Shown: positions 2,395 through 12,776 of the stretch, piece by piece
Numbering within the stretch: the stretch's first letter is position 1
Layout: the number at the start of each line of letters is the position of its first letter
NCBI GenBank assembly: GCA_027080315.1
Contig: JALWSI010000158.1
Coordinates: forward strand, 1,308-14,083
Reading direction: 5' to 3'
DNA: 12,776 nt
Source of the DNA: a bacterium
Lineage (GTDB): Bacteria; Thermosulfidibacterota; Thermosulfidibacteria; Thermosulfidibacterales; JALWSI01
Made by a program: the position numbers and the translations under genes
The notes under the pieces: model-generated
Database searches by the model: none
Told to the model about the DNA's origin: nothing
Seen by the model: the letters and a program-made list of their open reading frames with translations, nothing else

Positions 2395-2435
2395 GGGGTG
2401 AGGGATCTCCCCTCTCCCTCACCCCGTCCTTTTTT
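2395..2435 (+). terminator. Intrinsic terminator of the lipoprotein gene
   Basis: GGGGTGAGGGA (2395-2405) and TCCCTCACCCC (2415-2425) form a perfect 11-pair GC-rich stem with a 9-base loop, followed by GTCC and six T (2430-2435). The T-tract runs into the stop codon of the converging gene (TAA on the minus strand at 2436-2434). A competing 6-pair hairpin, CCCTCA (2386-2391) with TGAGGG (2399-2404), overlaps its left arm. Confidence 0.85.
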
Positions 2436-3015
2436 ACACTCCGTAGCGCTTAAGCACCTTTAGAACGTCAATGAGCTGATCCTTGCTCACAAGGAAGAAA
2501 CGCTTTCTTACCCGTCCTTTGGGATCAATAATCACGAGGTAAGGAAGGTGCTTTATGGAATATCCCTTTGCAAGGTCAACAATCTCTTCGTCTGTGGCGT
2601 AGGCTATCTTGAAGTTCAATCCTCTCTTCTTCACCACCTCTTTGAGGTGGTCTAAGGCCGAGTTGTCGTTAACGGGATCCAGGAACACTCCAAGCACCTC
2701 AAGCCAGTCTGGTTTGTTATTGCACAATGGAATAAGGGTCTCCTCCTCCAGCCTTTTGCAAAGGGGACATTTCTCCATGGCAAAGTAGAGAATAAGATAT
2801 TTCCCAGAGTAGGTGAGGGGATCTACCGTGCTGTTATCCAAGGTTTTTAATAGGAATGGATGTGCTGTTGGTAGGTTTTTTACAGCCCACTGTCTTCCCC
2901 AGAGATTCAGCCCTATCACCGCTCCCAGCACGGCGATGATTATGAACCAGTTTATCCTTGCCAATCTCCGAGGATTCACCTCGTTGGGTGGTCGGGGACT
3001 AAATAGCCCTCTCAT
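2434..3015 (-). CDS. Membrane-anchored thioredoxin-fold protein (TlpA/AhpC-TSA-like)
   Basis: A 193-residue protein with an N-terminal membrane anchor (about 22-40, WFIIIAVLGAVIGLNLWG) preceded by basic residues, so the rest should lie outside the cytoplasmic membrane. The soluble part has thioredoxin-fold landmarks: a beta strand YLILYFAM, the redox pair Cys83-Pro-Leu-Cys86 at the start of a helix, and HLPYLVIIDPKGRV, which holds the cis-Pro and following strand. A third Cys lies at 98. The Trp that usually precedes CxxC is absent. The likely role is disulfide exchange or peroxide/thiol redox in the periplasm, but the substrate is unknown. It is last in the operon. ATG at 3015 overlaps the 3' end of the acyltransferase gene by 17 bases and has AAAGGT upstream at about 9 bases. 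Alternative: an SCO- or peroxiredoxin-like member of the same superfamily. Confidence 0.82.
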   Translation of the reverse strand: MRGLFSPRPPNEVNPRRLARINWFIIIAVLGAVIGLNLWGRQWAVKNLPTAHPFLLKTLDNSTVDPLTYSGKYLILYFAMEKCPLCKRLEEETLIPLCNNKPDWLEVLGVFLDPVNDNSALDHLKEVVKKRGLNFKIAYATDEEIVDLAKGYSIKHLPYLVIIDPKGRVRKRFFLVSKDQLIDVLKVLKRYGV

Positions 3016-4114
3016 AGATTCTGTACCTTTTGTAGAGAGTTGCTCCCATATCCTTTGATATAAGGCTATTCACCTTGTGATTGTCCTCTAATGTCCAGGA
3101 TAGCTCTCCTCCTCTGTATCCCAAGCCCCTACCAGCTTTGAGGCTTGACAGGCACAACAGCAATTCAAGCCCTTTGTGACGCCACTCCTTCTTCACCCCC
3201 ATGGCCACCATTCGGGCTCTGCTTATGTGTCGGGAGTAGAGCATCAACTTGCATATTCCAAAGGGGAATAGACTGCCCTTTAGTCTCCTTAACACCTGGT
3301 TGTAGTCGGGAAGGCTGATTGAGGTGGCAACTGGTGTCCCGTTCTTTTCTATGAAGATCACAAGGTCAGGCTTTATTATTGGACGTAGCCTTTTTGCCAT
3401 GAACTCTATTTCGTCCTCGTCTAAGGGAACGAACCCCCAGTTCTCTTCCCATGCAGAGTTGTAGATCTCGGCAAAGCGCTCAATCTCTTTCTCAAACTCC
3501 CCCATTCTCATGCTGCGCACCTCTACTCCCGATCTTCTCTCTATTCTGTCGGCCACGCGGTATAGGGTCTCTGGTAGCTCCCTATAGGCATCCATCCAGA
3601 AGGCGAACAGGTCTTTGGCCTTTTCAAATCCCAGCTTCTCCATAACCTCGGCGTACCAGGGAGGGTTATAGGGCATCATGATCACTGGAGGATCGTCAAA
3701 TCCATCAATAAGTAGGCCACATTCGTGGTTTATTGAGAGACTGAATGGGCCTTTTATGGTTTCCATCCCTTGTTCTTTTAGCCAAGAAGATGCGGCTTCA
3801 AATAGAGCGGTGTAAACCTTAGGATCCCTGATCGTCTCAAAGAACCCGAAGAAGCCTGCCTTCTCATTGTGTATTTCGTTGTGCCTGTGATCTACAGTGG
3901 TGGCTATTCTGCCTACTATTCTGCCCACGTTATCCTTAACCACGAAGAAGACGGTATCTGCATGCTTGAAGAAGGGGTTTCTCTCTTTGTCAAAGAAACG
4001 AAGCTGGTCAACTACCAGAGGAGAGACCCAGTTTGGATCGTCTCGGTATAGCCTTTTGGCCATGGTGATGAAGCCAATAAGCCCCTTACGGTCTCTTACC
4101 TCTTCAACCTCCAT
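2999..4114 (-). CDS. BcerS/YghO-like double-GNAT N-acyltransferase, candidate bacterial ceramide synthase
   Basis: A 371-residue soluble protein of the family that includes E. coli YghO and the Caulobacter ceramide synthase bCerS. Family marks seen are YRDDPNWVSPL (23-33), NPFFKHAD (46-53), VGRIATTVDHRHNE (67-80), GFFGFFE (87-93), GPFSLSINHECGLLIDGFD (122-140) and MMPYNPPWY (146-154). The C-terminal half carries a GNAT core with VAMGVKKEWRHKGLE (303-317), resembling the acyl-CoA pyrophosphate loop. In known cases the enzyme N-acylates a long-chain base, and here it sits directly behind the SPT-like gene. Its ATG shares one base with that gene's stop (TGATG, 4116-4112) and has only a weak SD, so translation is probably coupled. 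Substrate is inferred from family and context; a related N-acyltransferase acting on another amine is possible. Confidence 0.8.
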   Translation of the reverse strand: MEVEEVRDRKGLIGFITMAKRLYRDDPNWVSPLVVDQLRFFDKERNPFFKHADTVFFVVKDNVGRIVGRIATTVDHRHNEIHNEKAGFFGFFETIRDPKVYTALFEAASSWLKEQGMETIKGPFSLSINHECGLLIDGFDDPPVIMMPYNPPWYAEVMEKLGFEKAKDLFAFWMDAYRELPETLYRVADRIERRSGVEVRSMRMGEFEKEIERFAEIYNSAWEENWGFVPLDEDEIEFMAKRLRPIIKPDLVIFIEKNGTPVATSISLPDYNQVLRRLKGSLFPFGICKLMLYSRHISRARMVAMGVKKEWRHKGLELLLCLSSLKAGRGLGYRGGELSWTLEDNHKVNSLISKDMGATLYKRYRIYERAI

Positions 4115-5295
4115 CAGATAACACCCAGCTCTTTCCCCACCTTCTTGAATTTCTCAAGGGCAAAGTCCATCTGATCTATGGTGTGGGTTGCCATGCAGCT
4201 TACCCTGAGCAGGGACTGTCCCGGAGCCACCCCTGGAGGAACAACGGGATTAACGAAGATCCCTTCCTCGTGTAGAGCCATGCACATCTGAAAGGTCTTA
4301 AGTGGATCTCTGATATAAACCGGGATCACTGGGGTCTGGGTGTTACCAATGTCAAATCCCAGACACCTGAATCCATCCTGCAGGTGATAGGTCACCTTCC
4401 AGAGCTGTTCCCTTCGTTCCGGTTCCTCTTTAAGTATCCTTAAGGCCTCTAAAGCCGCAGCTGCATTGGGAGGGGATATGCTGGCGCTGAAGATGATGGT
4501 TCTTGCCATGTGTTTAAGGTAATCAATCACCTCTTTGCTTGATGCTGCAAATCCACCAAGAGAAGCCAGGGACTTGCTGAAGGTGCCCATTATAACATCC
4601 ACCTCATCTGTGACCCCAAAGTGTTCAGAGGTTCCTGCGCCTTTCTCTCCCATCACTCCCAGGCCGTGAGCATCGTCAACCATAACCCTTGCCCCAAACT
4701 CTTGGGCCAAGGAACATATCTCTGGCAGGGGGGCTAAATCTCCTTCCATACTGTAAACCCCGTCCACAACAATCATTATACCGGCTTCTTCGGGTATCCT
4801 TTTGAGGACATGGGTAAGATCCTCCATGGAGTTGTGGCGGTACCTTTTGGTCTTTCCCAATGCCAGTCTGCACCCTTCCACTATGCTGGCGTGATCTGAT
4901 TTGTCGGCAATTACGTAGTCTCCCTTGCCTACCAAGGTGGCTATTATACCAAGGTTGGTCTGAAATCCCGTGCTAAAGAGAAGGGCTGACTCCTGCCCCA
5001 CAAAAGAGGAGATCTCCTCTTCAAGTTCAAGGTGGATATCCAGGGTTCCGTTGAGGAACCGAGATCCTGCGCAACCGGTGCCGTACTTCTCAATGGCTTT
5101 TATGGCTGCTTCTTTCACTCTTGGATGGTTGGTGAGCCCAAGGTAGCTGTTTGAACCCAGCATGAGCAGCTGTTGGCCATCTATGATCACCTCGGTGTCC
5201 TGTTCTGTGCTTATGGGACGAAAGTAGGGGTATAAACCGGCCTTACGCACCTTTTCGGCCTGTGTGAAGGAGTAGCACTTTTCAAAGATATCCAT
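4114..5295 (-). CDS. spt: Serine palmitoyltransferase-type PLP enzyme (alpha-oxoamine synthase family)
   Basis: The family condenses an amino acid with an acyl thioester. Serine palmitoyltransferase makes 3-ketosphinganine in the cytoplasm, the first step to sphingolipids. Using the ATG at 5295 (393 residues), visible marks are [14 protein letters not shown] near 71-84, SDHAS with the PLP-stacking His135, VDDAHGLG with Asp207 and His210, the PLP lysine Lys241 in [13 protein letters not shown], and Arg364 for the substrate carboxylate. GTFSKS and the [16 protein letters not shown] segment fit bacterial SPT better than BioF (typically GTFGKA) or Kbl (typically GTLGKA). No tdh or biotin genes are adjacent. 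The start is chosen because AAAAGGTGA (5298-5306) sits just before the ATG. A GTG at 5313, overlapping the ychF stop by 4 bases, is the alternative (399 residues) but lacks an SD. The following acyltransferase supports a lipid role. Exact substrates are not proven. Confidence 0.85.
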
Positions 5296-5297
5296 AC

Positions 5298-5306
5298 TCA
5301 CCTTTT
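5298..5306 (-). promoter_or_regulatory. Shine-Dalgarno site favouring the ATG start of spt
   Basis: On the minus strand AAAAGGTGA (5306-5298) precedes ATG (5295-5293), with GG five bases before the codon. The in-frame GTG at 5313 has no comparable site, and MDIFEKC is a sensible N-terminus, so the protein probably begins 14 bases after the ychF stop. Confidence 0.6.
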
Positions 5307-5309
5307 GAC

Positions 5310-6401
5310 TCACTTTCTTGTGAAACGGATGGTTATAAAATCTCCATCCTTTACCTCATACTCTTTGCCCTCTATTCTCATCAGCCCTTTCTCTTTTGCC
5401 TCTGCCAGAGATGAGAGGCTCTTTAGCTGCTCAAAAGAGATAACCTCTGCCTTAACAAACCCTTCTTCCATGTCAGAATGTATCTTTCCTGCAGCCTTCA
5501 CCACGGGGGTGTTTCTCTTAACGGTCCAGGCCCTGCACTCCTTCTCGTTGCCGGTGAAGAAGGTAACAAGGCTGAGAAGCTCGTATCCCGCTTTTATTAG
5601 GGCATCTAAGCCCCTCTCTTCAATTCCCATCTCTTCTCTGAAGAGCTCCTGCTCTTCAGGATCCATCTGGGCAAGCTCAGCCTCTATCTGGCCCCGAATG
5701 ATTACAATTGGAATCCCTTCATTTTTGCACCTCTCTATAAGAGGTGATGCATCAACTGCTGGTTCTCCGTCTTCCCCCACGTTCAATACGCATAAGCGAG
5801 GCTTTAGGGTTAGAAGCTGGTAGGGTTTTAGAAGGTTCAGCTCTTTTGGTGAGAATTCCTCCAAAGGCAAGAAGCGCTCCTGTTCCAAAAAGGAGACCAC
5901 TTTCTCTAAGGTTTCTGCCTCTCTTGCCCTGTCTTTGTTTCCTATCTGAACAAGCCTTTTCACCTTGGCAAGGTGCTTTTCAACAAGCTCAAGGTCAGAG
6001 AGGATCAGCTCTATCTCTACAGTCTCCCAGTCGTAGAGGGGATCCAGCTTGCCCCTGACGTGGGACACATTGCCGCTCTCAAAGGCCCTGACCACCTGGG
6101 CCATGGCATCCACCCCTCTGATGTGGGAGAGAAACTGGTTTCCTAAACCCTCTCCCTTGCTTGCACCTTCAACCAGGCCGGCTATGTCCACAAACTCCAT
6201 CACCGTTGGTACTGCTTTGGGGGATCCCACAAAGGACTGAACCACAGGTAATCTTGGGTCGGGAACCTCAACCACCCCTGTATTTGGATCAATGGTGCAG
6301 AAGGGGTAAGATTCTGCTGGCACCGATGATGATGTCAAGGCATTGAATATGGTGGACTTACCAGAGTTAGGAAGCCCTATTATACCGCAAGAGAATCCCA
6401 T
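5310..6401 (-). CDS. ychF: Redox-regulated ATPase/GTPase YchF (Obg superfamily, OLA1 type)
   Basis: A 363-residue cytoplasmic P-loop NTPase that binds ribosomes and, in studied members, prefers ATP and affects stress responses. The N-terminus [18 protein letters not shown] (6-23) holds the G1 loop. G3 is DIAGL (72-76), and the YchF signature [17 protein letters not shown] follows. The usual G4 NKxD is replaced by NVGE (207-210), the family trait linked to relaxed guanine specificity. About 125-185 is a charged helical insert. The C-terminal TGS-like domain (about 280-363) includes [17 protein letters not shown] and ends near [10 protein letters not shown]. Length is standard. ATG at 6401 shares one base with the pssA stop (TAATG, 6403-6399). 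A GAGGAG lies 11 bases upstream inside pssA. It is a housekeeping gene with no clear functional link to the lipid genes around it. Confidence 0.96.
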
Positions 6402-7159
6402 TATTCAGGAGTCTCCTCGGTCTCAACCTTGCATGATGTTTTGTTGATTATTGCCTGCTTTCTGCCTTTAGCAATCCACATCACAGGTCCCCAAGAAGCA
6501 TAGATCATGGCCATTATCCAAAGGGATATCTTGGGCTCAGAGAGCACCACTGCTATGCCAAGAATGACACAGAAGAGAACAATAAAGGGATACCGTCTGT
6601 TGAATATTCCTTCTTTGAAAGCCACATAGGGTATGTTGCTCACCATTAGAAGGGCTGTGCATATGGCTATAACTGCAACAAGCAGCACCTCCAATTTAGG
6701 GGCCCCGATGTGAACTGAGCTATGTGTGAATATGTAGGTGGTTGCAACCACAGCAGCAGCGGCAGGTATGGGAAGCCCAGTAAAGCTCTTGGTGTTTGGA
6801 CCATGTGAGGCCTGCACGTTGAATCTCGCAAGCCTTAATGCTCCACAGGTTAGGTATAGGAAGGACAGCATCCACCCTGCTCTGCCCAGACGTTCAAGAG
6901 CCCAGAAGTAGAGAAGAAGGGCAGGGGCTACTCCGAAGGCCACGAGGTCGCATAAAGAGTCGTACTGCACCCCGAAAGAGCTTGTGGCACTGGTTAATCT
7001 GGCAACCTTACCATCCAAAGCATCCATGATCATAGAGAGAATTATAGCCCAACAGGCCACCTCTAAATTGCCTTTTAGTACGGCTACAGAGGCGTAAAAA
7101 CCCCCGAATATGGTGCCCGTGGTTATAAGGTTTGGTAAAATATAGACTCCTCTCTTCAA
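6401..7159 (-). CDS. pssA: CDP-diacylglycerol--serine O-phosphatidyltransferase
   Basis: An integral inner-membrane enzyme, 252 residues, that transfers phosphatidyl from CDP-diacylglycerol to L-serine, giving phosphatidylserine. The CDP-alcohol phosphotransferase motif is complete: Asp49-Gly50-x2-Ala53-Arg54-x8-Gly63-x3-Asp67-x3-Asp71. Downstream GALRLARFN and FTGLPIPAAA match the eukaryote/Bacillus-type PssA subclass. Several hydrophobic segments follow (about 32-46, 74-88, 97-112, 133-147, 156-175, 190-206, 212-230), and the polar C-terminus ends in Glu-rich residues. The start is TTG at 7159, overlapping the psd stop (TTGA). It is supported by GGAGGAG (7171-7165) five bases upstream and by the conserved N-terminus KRGVYILPNLIT. 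The product is the substrate of Psd encoded just upstream. Family and reaction are well supported. Confidence 0.95.
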   Translation of the reverse strand: MKRGVYILPNLITTGTIFGGFYASVAVLKGNLEVACWAIILSMIMDALDGKVARLTSATSSFGVQYDSLCDLVAFGVAPALLLYFWALERLGRAGWMLSFLYLTCGALRLARFNVQASHGPNTKSFTGLPIPAAAAVVATTYIFTHSSVHIGAPKLEVLLVAVIAICTALLMVSNIPYVAFKEGIFNRRYPFIVLFCVILGIAVVLSEPKISLWIMAMIYASWGPVMWIAKGRKQAIINKTSCKVETEETPE

Positions 7160-7773
7160 CTCTTCTCCTCCGTCATTGCCACAATGCTCTCTCCAGACTT
7201 AACATTCTCTCCCTTCTTCACCACAAAACGGGCAAAATCCCTTGGCATATCAAGCTCTACCCGGGAACCAAAGAGGATCATGCCAATCCGCTCTCCTCGG
7301 CTCATCCTGTCTCCCACAGATGCCCAGCATTGAATGCGCCGTGCTATCATACCAGCTATCAGGGAGACCTGAAACTGCTCTCCAGTTGAGCTCTTAAAGG
7401 TTATGATTACCCTGTTGTTTTTTGAGGCCTCAGGGAGATTTGCCGACTTGAATCCCCCCTTCTCTCGCCTTATCTCAACCACCTCTCCATCCATGGGGGC
7501 CCTGTTCACGTGGCAGTTGAATAGTGACATGAAGATGGCAAGGTGCGTGCCATCTTCATCTTCTTTTACAACCACAACCTTACCATCTGCAGGTGAGACT
7601 ATTGCCTCTGGTATGGGAGGAACCTCCCTTTCAGGATCCCTGAAGAATAGCACGAAGAAGAGGGCGAGAACCACAAAGAGGGTGGAGAGAAAGTACCATC
7701 CCGCCATCCCTGTAACAAAACAGGCGCCTATGGCAGAAAAGATAAATGGCCTGCCCTCTTTTCGCGTCTTCAT
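7156..7773 (-). CDS. psd: Phosphatidylserine decarboxylase, short archaeal-type form
   Basis: A 205-residue proenzyme that decarboxylates phosphatidylserine to phosphatidylethanolamine at the inner membrane. A hydrophobic hairpin at about 9-44 would anchor it. Conserved stretches are FFRDPERE (43-50), VSPADGKV (59-66), IFMSLFNCHVNRAPMDG (80-96) and the self-cleavage site FGSRVELDMP. Cleavage between Gly169 and Ser170 should give the alpha chain with its N-terminal pyruvoyl group. The short Psd class has GS in this position in place of the LGST of the long E. coli-type enzyme. Length agrees with the short class (about 200-220). It begins 11 bases after ilvC with ATG at 7773 but without a recognisable SD, so it may depend on reinitiation after ilvC. 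Its stop overlaps the pssA start. Together PssA and Psd complete the PE pathway. Confidence 0.95.
   Translation of the reverse strand: MKTRKEGRPFIFSAIGACFVTGMAGWYFLSTLFVVLALFFVLFFRDPEREVPPIPEAIVSPADGKVVVVKEDEDGTHLAIFMSLFNCHVNRAPMDGEVVEIRREKGGFKSANLPEASKNNRVIITFKSSTGEQFQVSLIAGMIARRIQCWASVGDRMSRGERIGMILFGSRVELDMPRDFARFVVKKGENVKSGESIVAMTEEKS
7165..7171 (-). promoter_or_regulatory. Shine-Dalgarno site supporting the TTG start of pssA
   Basis: GGAGGAG on the minus strand (7171-7165), inside the end of psd, is five bases before TTG (7159-7157). It decides the unusual start codon, since no ATG near the conserved N-terminus is available. Confidence 0.75.
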
Positions 7774-7784
7774 TAACTAAGGTC

Positions 7785-8792
<1,008 letters not shown>

Positions 8793-8793
<1 letters not shown>

Positions 8794-9341
8794 CAATGAT
8801 GGGGGGTTTGAGTGAGTTTAAGGCTCTTGGGGCCTCTAACTACGGCCACCTTACCTGTCCTCACTATCTCCCTTATTCCGCAGGGCTTAAGAAGCTCTAT
8901 GAAGGCTTCTATCTTTCCTTCGTCTCCTGTGATCTCTATAACGAAGGTTTCAGAGCTCACATCAACTATCTTGCCTCTGAATATGTCTGATATCCGCATA
9001 ACCTCTGCCCTGCTGTCTCCCTTGGCATTCACCTTAACCAGTACCATCTCTCTGTCAACGAACTTGTCCCCTGAGGCAGTGAGATCAACCACCTTTATCA
9101 CGTCTATCAGCCTTCTGAGTTGCTTTATGATCTGCTCAATGATCTGGGGATGGCCAGATGTCACTATGGTGATTCGTGAGACTGAGGGATCAAGGGTTTC
9201 GCCTACAGAGAGGCTGTGAATGTTGTAGTTCTTGGCGCTGAAAAGGCTTGCAATTCTTGCCAACACACCTGGCCGGTTCTCCACCAAGAGGGCTATGGTG
9301 TGTTTTCTTATCTCGCTCTCGTAACCGTTAGCATTCTTCAC
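8793..9341 (-). CDS. ilvN: Acetolactate synthase small (regulatory) subunit
   Basis: The regulatory partner of IlvB, 182 residues, which raises activity and confers feedback inhibition by branched-chain amino acids. The N-terminal ACT domain (about 14-90) reads [20 protein letters not shown] followed by [14 protein letters not shown], the effector-binding face seen in the family. The C-terminal half contains [33 protein letters not shown] and the [27 protein letters not shown] segment that contacts the catalytic subunit. It has a tail of about ten residues after the usual end. The start is GTG at 9341, with a perfect AGGAGG (9354-9349) 7 bases upstream in the 20-base gap after ilvB. Symbols ilvN and ilvH are both used for this family. 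Confidence 0.96.
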
Positions 9342-9348
9342 AACAGTA

Positions 9349-9354
9349 CCTCCT
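9349..9354 (-). promoter_or_regulatory. Shine-Dalgarno site of ilvN, supporting its GTG start
   Basis: AGGAGG on the minus strand (9354-9349) lies seven bases before GTG (9341-9339), within the short gap after the ilvB stop (TAA, 9364-9362). Confidence 0.8.
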
Positions 9355-9361
9355 GCTCCGC

Positions 9362-11131
9362 TTAGGTGGGGAAGTTCAAAGGCAATAGGTGTTTCAAGGT
9401 CTTGCCATTTCTCTCTCCCGATGGAGCATCAAGGATCATGTCACTAACAGAAGCCCCGGCAGGCACCATGGGGAATACGTTTTCTTCCCTGTCAACCACC
9501 ACGTCCAGAATAAAAGGTCCAGGGGTCTCAATCATCTCTCTTAGTGCATCTTCAACCTCATCAGGCTTATTTATCCTTTTGGCCTTTATCCCGTAAGCAT
9601 CGGCAAGTTTGACAAAGTCCGGTTGAATACTCATATCGGTCTCTGCATGGTTTCTGTCAAAGAATAGGGTCTGCCACTGGCGCACCATACCGAGATACTG
9701 ATTGTTAAGTATAAGGATCTTAACAGGTATCTTCTCTTGAATAACCGTGCCCAGTTCTTGAATGTTCATCTGGATACTGCCATCACCGGCAATATCAATC
9801 ACCACCTTGTCTGGGTTGGCTATCTGGGCCCCTATGGCAGCGGGAAAACCAAATCCCATGGTGCCGAGCCCTCCCGAGGTGATGAATCGGCGAGGATGTA
9901 GGTGATGGTAGAAGAGGGCGGCCCACATCTGGTTCTGACCCACCTCAGTGGTGATTATGGCGTCTCCCTTTGTGATCTCGTAGAGTTTCTCAATCACAAA
10001 TTGTGGTTTTATCACCTTCTCGTCGTAGGCGTACTGCAAAGGATGTTCCTGAGCCCACTCTTTTATGGATTCAAGCCAGGCCCGGTGTTGTTCCTTCCAG
10101 TCAAGCTCTTTCCCCTTTAAGGCGGTAACCAGTTGTTTTAAAACCTCTTTGGCCTCCCCAACAACGGGAATGTCTACCACCACGTTCTTGCTTATGGAGG
10201 AGGGGTCTATGTCTATGTGGATGATCTCTGCATTGGGTGCAAACTCTGAGACCTTTCCAGTCACCCTGTCGTCAAACCTTGCTCCCACTGCCACTAAGAG
10301 ATCGCAGTTGGTTATAGCTGTGTTGGCTACGTAGGTTCCGTGCATGCCCAACATTCCGAGAAAGAGGGGACTGTCTCCTGGAAAGGCACCAAGACCCATG
10401 AGGGTTAAAGTTACAGGGGTGAAGGTCATTTCAGCCAATTCTCTAAGCTCTTGGTAGGCATTTGAGGCTACAACCCCGCCTCCTGCATAGATAAGGGGCT
10501 TCTTTGCTTTGGTAAAGGCCTCCGCTGCCCTCTCTATCTGGTGTGGATGTCCCTTGGTGCTTACAGAGTAACCCCTGATCCTCACACGCTCAGGGTAATC
10601 AAATTCGGCTTCTCCAACAATGACGTCCTTGGGCATATCAACCAGTACTGGCCCCGGTCTCCCTGTGGTGGCGATGTAGAAGGCTTCTCTTATCACCCTT
10701 GCAAGGTCGGCAGTTTCTCTCACCAAATAGTTATGCTTGGTGCAAGACCTGGTTATTCCTACTATATCTGCCTCTTGAAAGGCGTCGTTTCCTATCAGGG
10801 TGGTTGGAACCTGACCGGTGAAGACCACCACAGGCACAGAGTCTAAGTATGCATCGGTTATGCCTGTCACGGTGTTTGTGGCACCGGGGCCCGAAGTGAC
10901 CAGCACCACCCCTGGCTTCCCACTGGATCTTGCATAGCCTTCAGCGGCGTGAACAGCGGCCTGTTCGTGGCGTGTTAGCACATGTCTGATCTTAGGGTAG
11001 TAATCTTTCAGGGAATCGTAGAGGTTGATCACAGCTCCTCCAGGGTAGCCAAACACAACCTCTACCCCTTCTTTCAATAGAGATTCCCAAAATATCTGGT
11101 AGCCCTTTAAAACTCTTTTCTCTGTTTCCAT
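9362..11131 (-). CDS. ilvB: Acetolactate synthase large (catalytic) subunit
   Basis: A ThDP-dependent enzyme, 589 residues, that condenses two pyruvates to acetolactate, or pyruvate and 2-ketobutyrate to acetohydroxybutyrate. The N-terminal Pyr domain shows [13 protein letters not shown] (27-39) and catalytic Glu56 in [16 protein letters not shown]. The middle domain has [12 protein letters not shown] (282-293) and IHIDIDP, typical of the FAD-binding family members. The C-terminal PP domain carries the ThDP motif GDGS (449-452) ending at [12 protein letters not shown] (476-487), and the herbicide-region Trp is present in RQWQ. Length and order are standard. ATG at 11131 lies 25 bases after ilvD. 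The only SD candidate is GGGGGG four bases before the start, which would pair with the anti-SD using a G-U pair. ilvN follows directly. Confidence 0.97.
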
Positions 11132-11156
11132 TTAACCCCCCGGCTAAATTTATATG

Positions 11157-12776
11157 CTATATGCCTTTAAACACCGCTCCTTCGTCTGCGGAAGAGACCA
11201 TCTTTGCGTATCTTCCCAGATACCCTTCAGTGATCTTTGGAGGCGGAGGTGTCCATTCATCTCTCCTTTTGGCGAGCTCTTCATCTGAGATCTTTACGTC
11301 TATTCTTCTGGCGGGAATATCAATCACCACCGTATCGCCATCTTTCAGAAGCCCTATAGGGCCACCCTCCATTGCCTCGGGAGAGACGTGTCCCACGCAG
11401 GGGCCCTTGGTTCCACCAGAGAATCTGCCGTCGGTGATGAGTCCCACGGTGTTGGAGAGACCCATGCCAACAATTGCAGAGGTGGGAGAGAGCATCTCCC
11501 GCATTCCTGGTCCTCCCTTGGGTCCCTCGTATCGGATTATCACCATGTCTCCGGCCTTTATCTTGCCAGAGGTTATGGCTTCCATTGCTGCCTCTTCAGA
11601 ATCAAACACCCTGGCGGTGCCTTCTAACACCATTGCTTGAGGATCAACTGCGGTCTGTTTCACAACAGAGCCGTTGGGGGCAAGGTTGCCTTTCAAAACG
11701 GCGATGCCGCCCTCTGGATGGTAGGGGTTATCAACGGGCCTTATGATGTCATCATCGCGAACCTGGGCTTTCTGGGCGATCTCTATTGTGGTCATGCCGC
11801 TTACGGTGGGAAGATTCTCTACTTTCTCTCCTAAGCGTTTGAATACAGCGGGTATTCCCCCTGCGGCATCAAGGTCCTCCATCATGTAGTCTCCGCCGGG
11901 ACGCAGGCTACAGAGGTGTGGAGTCTCTCTACTTATTCTGTCAAAGGCCTCAAGCTCAAGATCCACCCCTGCCTCTCTTGCAATGGCGAGGAGATGCAGC
12001 ACGGTGTTTGTGGATCCACCAAGGGCCATATCAACCTTTATTGCGTTGTAGAAGGCCTCTTTCACCATGATGTCCCTTGCACGAACCCCTTTCCTCACCA
12101 GCTCCATAAGGGCTATTCCGCTATCAAAGGCTATTCTTTTCTTTCTGGCTAAGACCGCAGGGGCGGTGCCACATCCAGGAAGTGATAGACCCAGAGCCTC
12201 TGTTAAACAGGCCATGGTGTTGGCGGTATACAGACCCTGACAGGATCCGGCTCCTGGACATGCCTCTATTTCAAGCTCGTGAAGCTCGTTTTCTGAGATC
12301 ATGCCAGCTTTGCAGCGACCCACGGCCTCAAAGGTGTCACGAACCAGAGAGAGTCTCTTGTTTGCAAGACGGCCAGAGAGCATGGGACCGGCTGTTACCA
12401 CAACAGTGGGCAGGTTAAGCCTGCCTGCTGCCATAAGCATGCCGGGGGTTATCTTGTCGCAGTTTGTTAGCATCACCAGTCCATCAAGCTGATGAGCCTC
12501 AACCACGCTCTCAATCATATCAGCAATGAGCTCACGGGAGGGTAGAGAGTACTTCATGCCTTTGTGTCCCATGGCCACGCCATCGCAGATTCCAGGGACG
12601 GAGAAGAAGAAGGCATAACCTCCCCCTGTGTGAACGCCTTTCTCAATCCACCTCTCAAGGTCGCGCATCCCAACGTGGCCTGGAATGAGATCGGTGAAAC
12701 TGCTAACCACCCCGATAAAGGGCATGTCCCACCCTTTCTTTGGAACCCCAGTGGCATACAATAGAGCCCTGTGAGG
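11157..12776 (-). CDS. ilvD: Dihydroxy-acid dehydratase, N-terminus cut by the window edge
   Basis: This iron-sulfur enzyme dehydrates dihydroxy-isovalerate and dihydroxy-methylvalerate to 2-keto acids, the third common branched-chain step. 539 residues are visible. The frame continues to the right edge with PHRALL before [10 protein letters not shown], so the TTG at 12761 is an internal Leu and the true start lies outside. About 10-20 residues are missing compared with the usual 550-560. Cluster ligand motifs are all present: [24 protein letters not shown] and [15 protein letters not shown]. Further marks are [28 protein letters not shown] and [20 protein letters not shown] near the C-terminus. 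It ends with TAG at 11159-11157. It is the first gene of the minus-strand run in the window. Any promoter or leader control of the operon lies beyond the edge. Confidence 0.97.

Follow-up and report, generated by a model that had tools for sequence, protein, structure and literature searches.

In Caulobacter crescentus, spt (CC_1162), cerR (CC_1164) and cerS/bcerS (CC_1154), together with acpR and aasR, bring three core enzyme families into one genome: a serine palmitoyltransferase (SPT), an N-acyltransferase (bCerS) and the reductase CerR, which is also required for bacterial dihydroceramide synthesis (PMC11087976). The spt and cerS genes lie in different operons there, and spt is adjoined by a dedicated ACP and an acyl-ACP synthetase. 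Bacteroidotal spt is usually unlinked to cerS (PMC11334938), and a 2024 paper holds that the spt and cerS genes of bacteria never share an operon. Ding et al. 2024 (PMC11334938) found the three ceramide genes to be often clustered and counted Spt-like genes in 38 phyla; an SPT-bCerS locus is therefore of a kind already known. Clusters from Zixiibacteriota, Acidobacteriota, Myxococcota, Planctomycetota, Ignavibacteriota and others (L095-L174) have SPT directly upstream of bCerS, with an SPT of the clade to which the enzyme described below belongs, the Spt-like clade of Ding et al. 2024, and CerR often adjoins the pair.

The window, by which we mean the whole stretch of 12,776 nucleotides that was analysed (G000:C158:1308-14083, from a draft genome of 1.84 Mb that is 94% complete), also has SPT directly upstream of bCerS. 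As in C. crescentus, the three core enzyme families occur in one genome, but in the window the spt and bcerS genes overlap and neither an ACP nor a ligase gene is present, and cerR lies apart from them, next to hemL on a separate contig. We consider it very probable that, of the three core enzymes with which bacteria make ceramide, two are encoded by the pair and the third, CerR, elsewhere in the genome. The bacterium, a member of a little-sampled lineage, is a probable ceramide producer. With the full set of core genes identified, its order would join the likely ceramide makers. The one point of more than local interest, and a mild surprise, is a misfit with the published generalisation on the cerS operon; apart from this, the established picture is confirmed.

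The condensing enzyme

Both open reading frames of the pair are intact and lie on the minus strand, at 4114-5313 (399 aa from a GTG) and 2999-4114 (371 aa). The ATG at 5295 is a likelier start for the PLP-dependent alpha-oxoamine synthase than the GTG at 5313, since AAAGGTGAGT precedes it and the same-order orthologues begin aligning at about that point, which places the gene at 4114-5295. The GTFSKS motif is present, its PLP lysine being residue 247 counted from the GTG or 241 from the ATG, and the junction with bCerS (4112-4116, minus strand) reads GTTATCTGATGGAG, in which TGA and ATG have one base in common. Motif and TGATG overlap can thus be read directly, just as they had been reported in the preliminary description.

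The enzyme is a serine palmitoyltransferase, an activity we infer from family matches, tree position and diagnostic residues. The NCBIfam model NF047600 (CFB serine palmitoyltransferase) matched over its full length with 609 bits, the next family reaching 414. No named SPT subgroup cut-off was reached (609 against 640 for NF047600, a model built for the CFB group, and 408 against 500 and 343 against 670 for the other two named NCBIfam SPT models, NF047599 and NF047603), these cut-offs serving to assign names and marking no biochemical property of SPTs in general. In a search of the PDB the best match was the Sphingobacterium SPT 3a2b with 497 bits, followed at a distance by Sphingomonas SPTs (about 300-312 bits), 8s1y, which is annotated as Kbl/BioF (303), Kbl (at most 295) and cysteate acyltransferases of the SulA type (256-269). 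The match to the Sphingobacterium multivorum enzyme (PDB 3a2b, 8guh) is full-length, and the catalytic and diagnostic residues are the same: N55, H141, H216, K247 and R370 align with it, and the window enzyme has the DDAH motif with the Asp that binds PLP.

In a quick tree of 64 alpha-oxoamine synthases, with HemA left out and Kbl and BioF as outgroups on long branches, the window enzyme fell within an SPT clade (SH-aLRT 97) that takes in all SPTs, including the Sphingomonas references and that of Sphingobacterium, the latter on a long branch. Outside the clade were E. coli Kbl, E. coli BioF, 8s1y and the BioF-like paralogues of the order, which carry GTLGKALGG and one of which scores above the BioF cut-off. 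The phylogeny against Kbl and BioF that had been proposed earlier therefore puts the enzyme in neither of those clades. That a Kbl- or BioF-type enzyme, serving threonine breakdown or biotin synthesis, stands beside a GNAT gene by chance is scarcely credible: the superfamily is the same, and TIGR00858 and TIGR01825 match at about 400 bits, but this reading is contradicted by the tree position, by Ala277 (see below) and by the FSKS motif, the order has its separate GTLGKALGG paralogue (a second gene of this type begins on contig C156 of the window's genome), and the partnership of the window enzyme with bCerS and CerR is conserved. We rejected it on the strength of the tree and the diagnostic residue.

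A cysteate acyl-ACP transferase (SulA) would make the pair a source of sulfonolipid and not of ceramide. SulA and SPT agree in fold, in PLP site and in nearly every active-site residue (PMC9304779), Alistipes SulA (PDB 7u7h) agrees with the window enzyme in fold and PLP chemistry, and a sulfonolipid route would likewise need an N-acyltransferase. However, SulA has Lys281 at a site where SPT has Ala (Radka et al., PMC9304779). In our alignment this site is Ala277 in the window enzyme (numbered from the GTG at 5313), Ala in the SPT references, Asn in Kbl and Thr in BioF. Given this residue, the tree placement and the gap between 256-269 bits for SulA-type structures and 497 for SPT, we rejected the SulA reading as highly improbable. 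The earlier assignment as an SPT-type PLP enzyme is thus upheld by the SPT clade, Ala277 and the best PDB match.

Since some SPTs take alanine, and perhaps further amino acids (PMC11334938), the long-chain base may not be serine-derived. For anaerobes that have Spt-like enzymes, Ding et al. 2024 (PMC11334938) described 1-deoxyceramides derived from alanine and suggested a class derived from lysine. We nevertheless regard it as distinctly unlikely that the window SPT uses alanine or another amino acid to give 1-deoxyceramide-like or other N-acylated bases, as the active-site residues that were checked are the same as in the serine-using Sphingobacterium SPT.

The acyltransferase and an unlinked reductase

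The product of the second gene (2999-4114) had no match in NCBIfam and only a weak GNAT match in Pfam. Across 376 aa it shares 38% identity with E. coli YghO, which is listed as the counterpart (aca) of Caulobacter CC_1154 (PMC9386255), and across 380 aa 38% with a Roseomonas CerS. The latter is encoded in a Caulobacter-like sphingolipid cluster in which, as in Caulobacter, genes for ACP, SPT, a fatty acyl-AMP ligase, a CerR-like reductase and LptF/G are found; the two proteins served as reference sequences standing in for Caulobacter bCerS. An AlphaFold2 model of the window protein, built on a 43-sequence alignment, had a pLDDT of 95 and resembled tandem GNATs most closely (best Z 25.4, rmsd 3.2 over 303 residues; Foldseek, VIA-align 2). 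It also resembled, at a lower Z of about 16.6, N-myristoyltransferases, which likewise transfer long acyl chains. The full-length identities and the confident tandem-GNAT model support placing the protein, as a double GNAT, in the bCerS/YghO family of acyl-CoA N-acyltransferases, as had been proposed, and are consistent with a ceramide synthase activity.

The locus had been presented as a two-gene ceramide module. The SPT and bCerS pair is real, but this description understated the pathway, whose third enzyme appears to be encoded on another contig (C193). With a reductase encoded next to the SPT-bCerS pair of another lineage as query, we found in the window's genome a candidate CerR (P0003, C193:3924-4871; E 5e-43, next best 1e-13), the gene for which overlaps the end of an upstream gene recognised by eye as hemL. 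In a tree of 60 reductases, P0003 and six same-order orthologues form a clade of their own (support 98) that nests among 41 reductases whose genes, in other phyla, are close to SPT-bCerS; on the opposite side of the tree (support 91) lie 12 further epimerases, of which six belong to the window's genome. As P0003 is only 27% identical to Roseomonas CerR, its predicted function as a CerR-type reductase comes from this grouping. With this candidate, all three known core enzymes would be encoded in one genome.

Frequency and spacing of the gene pair

Of 80 named loci representing the closest bCerS relatives, 74 were usable, having either an adjacent SPT or at least 1.5 kb shown upstream. SPT lies directly upstream of bCerS on the same strand in 50 of these 74, in many phyla, a rate that is biased by the choice of the loci for similarity to the window's bCerS; in 36 of the 50, CerR is also within the retrieved stretch. 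SPT-bCerS adjacency is ordinary across many bacterial phyla, and overlaps occur as well, possibly of 1 nt in L124, L143 and L152 and of 4 nt in L112, L151 and L162. Judged by gene adjacency, the window and the 50 named loci disagree with the rule that cerS stands apart from spt, which does not hold outside Rhodobacteria.

A sample of 60 genomes, which holds eight other genomes of the window's order and no relatives between order and domain, gave a second view. A bCerS-family protein was present in 16 of 17 SPT-bearing genomes, as against 7 of the 43 without a recognisable SPT (Fisher p 2e-8; 3e-5 outside the window's order), which argues that the pairing is not due to chance. Its occurrence in those seven genomes also means that the bCerS family alone is no proof of ceramide. 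A good SPT match (55%) at G021:C1:60485-61690 comes from a sample genome with no bCerS match; the N-acylating step may be done there by something else.

The preliminary description had read the overlap as fixing the proportion of the two enzymes and as a notable coupling, tighter than in Caulobacter. The comparison with Caulobacter holds. As to the rest, adjacency is the commonest arrangement in the named loci, in many phyla, and spacing varies within the order: by ORF-finder start codons, there is a 4-nt overlap in G002, a few bases in G003 and G006 and about 100 nt in G007, and in G001 the genes lie on different contigs (L036 7880-11472 and L181 7201-8382), SPT behind ychF and bCerS beside trxB. 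Since adjacency is ordinary and spacing variable, the overlap is no evidence of a special stoichiometry, although it does make co-transcription of the two genes likely. In G001, where the pair is naturally broken, bCerS comes after genes for a BioF-like oxoamine synthase and an acyl-ligase-like protein. What looked like a split bCerS in G002 is really a run of Ns in the assembly.

Proposed pathway and neighbouring genes

In the pathway that we propose, SPT would join serine and a long-chain acyl thioester by condensation into a 3-keto long-chain base. The tandem GNAT of the bCerS family would N-acylate this base with acyl-CoA or acyl-ACP as donor, and the CerR-type NAD(P)-dependent reductase from C193 would reduce the 3-keto group to give dihydroceramide. 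This proposal draws on protein families, diagnostic residues, co-occurrence and conserved neighbourhood, from which we predict activity, substrate, acyl donor, the sequence of the final two steps, co-transcription and the lipid. As far as capacity goes, gene content supports the earlier suggestion that the organism makes an N-acylated, serine-derived long-chain base.

The pair stands at the end of a tight minus-strand directon, together with genes for phosphatidylethanolamine and branched-chain amino-acid synthesis, in the order ilvD, ilvB, ilvN, ilvC, psd, pssA, ychF, SPT, bCerS and a gene for a thioredoxin-like protein. The four ilv genes (7785-12761), upstream of the pair and co-directional with it, were recognised by eye, without a family scan. 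The next three were assigned by family models: psd, for phosphatidylserine decarboxylase (7156-7773; NF003685, 203 bits, cut-off 183), pssA, for CDP-diacylglycerol-serine O-phosphatidyltransferase (6401-7159; TIGR00473, 143 bits, cut-off 107), and the ychF GTPase gene (5310-6401; TIGR00092, 388 bits, cut-off 279), which ends 14 nt upstream of the SPT ATG. Gene order matches that in G002, G003 and G006. On this conserved order, ilv-psd-pssA-ychF-SPT-bCerS, a wider reading can be based, one that we consider speculative and rather unlikely. Ceramide synthesis would share a single transcription unit with the synthesis of branched-chain amino acids and of phosphatidylethanolamine, giving iso-branched ceramides, perhaps with a phosphoethanolamine head, made in step with the phospholipids; cerS would then serve de novo synthesis and not salvage, contrary to the published operon argument. 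Promoter and terminator scans of the window gave chance-level results only, and searches of it for tRNAs and tandem repeats found none.

The gene that ends the directon (2434-3015, minus strand) overlaps the end of bCerS by 17 nt and encodes a membrane-anchored thioredoxin-like protein of the TlpA/ResA type (AhpC-TSA, 3.8e-9), which is probably unrelated to ceramide. A protein of this kind is also encoded downstream of bCerS in G002 (L053 409-975), and in other genomes of the order that slot is taken by trxB, for thioredoxin reductase. On the opposite strand of the window, 741-2336 encodes a secreted lipoprotein-like protein with PKD-like and PPC (pre-peptidase C-terminal) regions and without a close family assignment. 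The same contig carries, immediately upstream of ilvD (L035 14403-15275), a gene for a protein that consists almost wholly of ankyrin repeats. The start of the second alpha-oxoamine synthase gene on contig C156 of the window's genome is at L054 6-161, where it is ended by the contig end; beside it, at 213-1091, is an LpxI-like gene, which suggests that the organism may also make lipid A.
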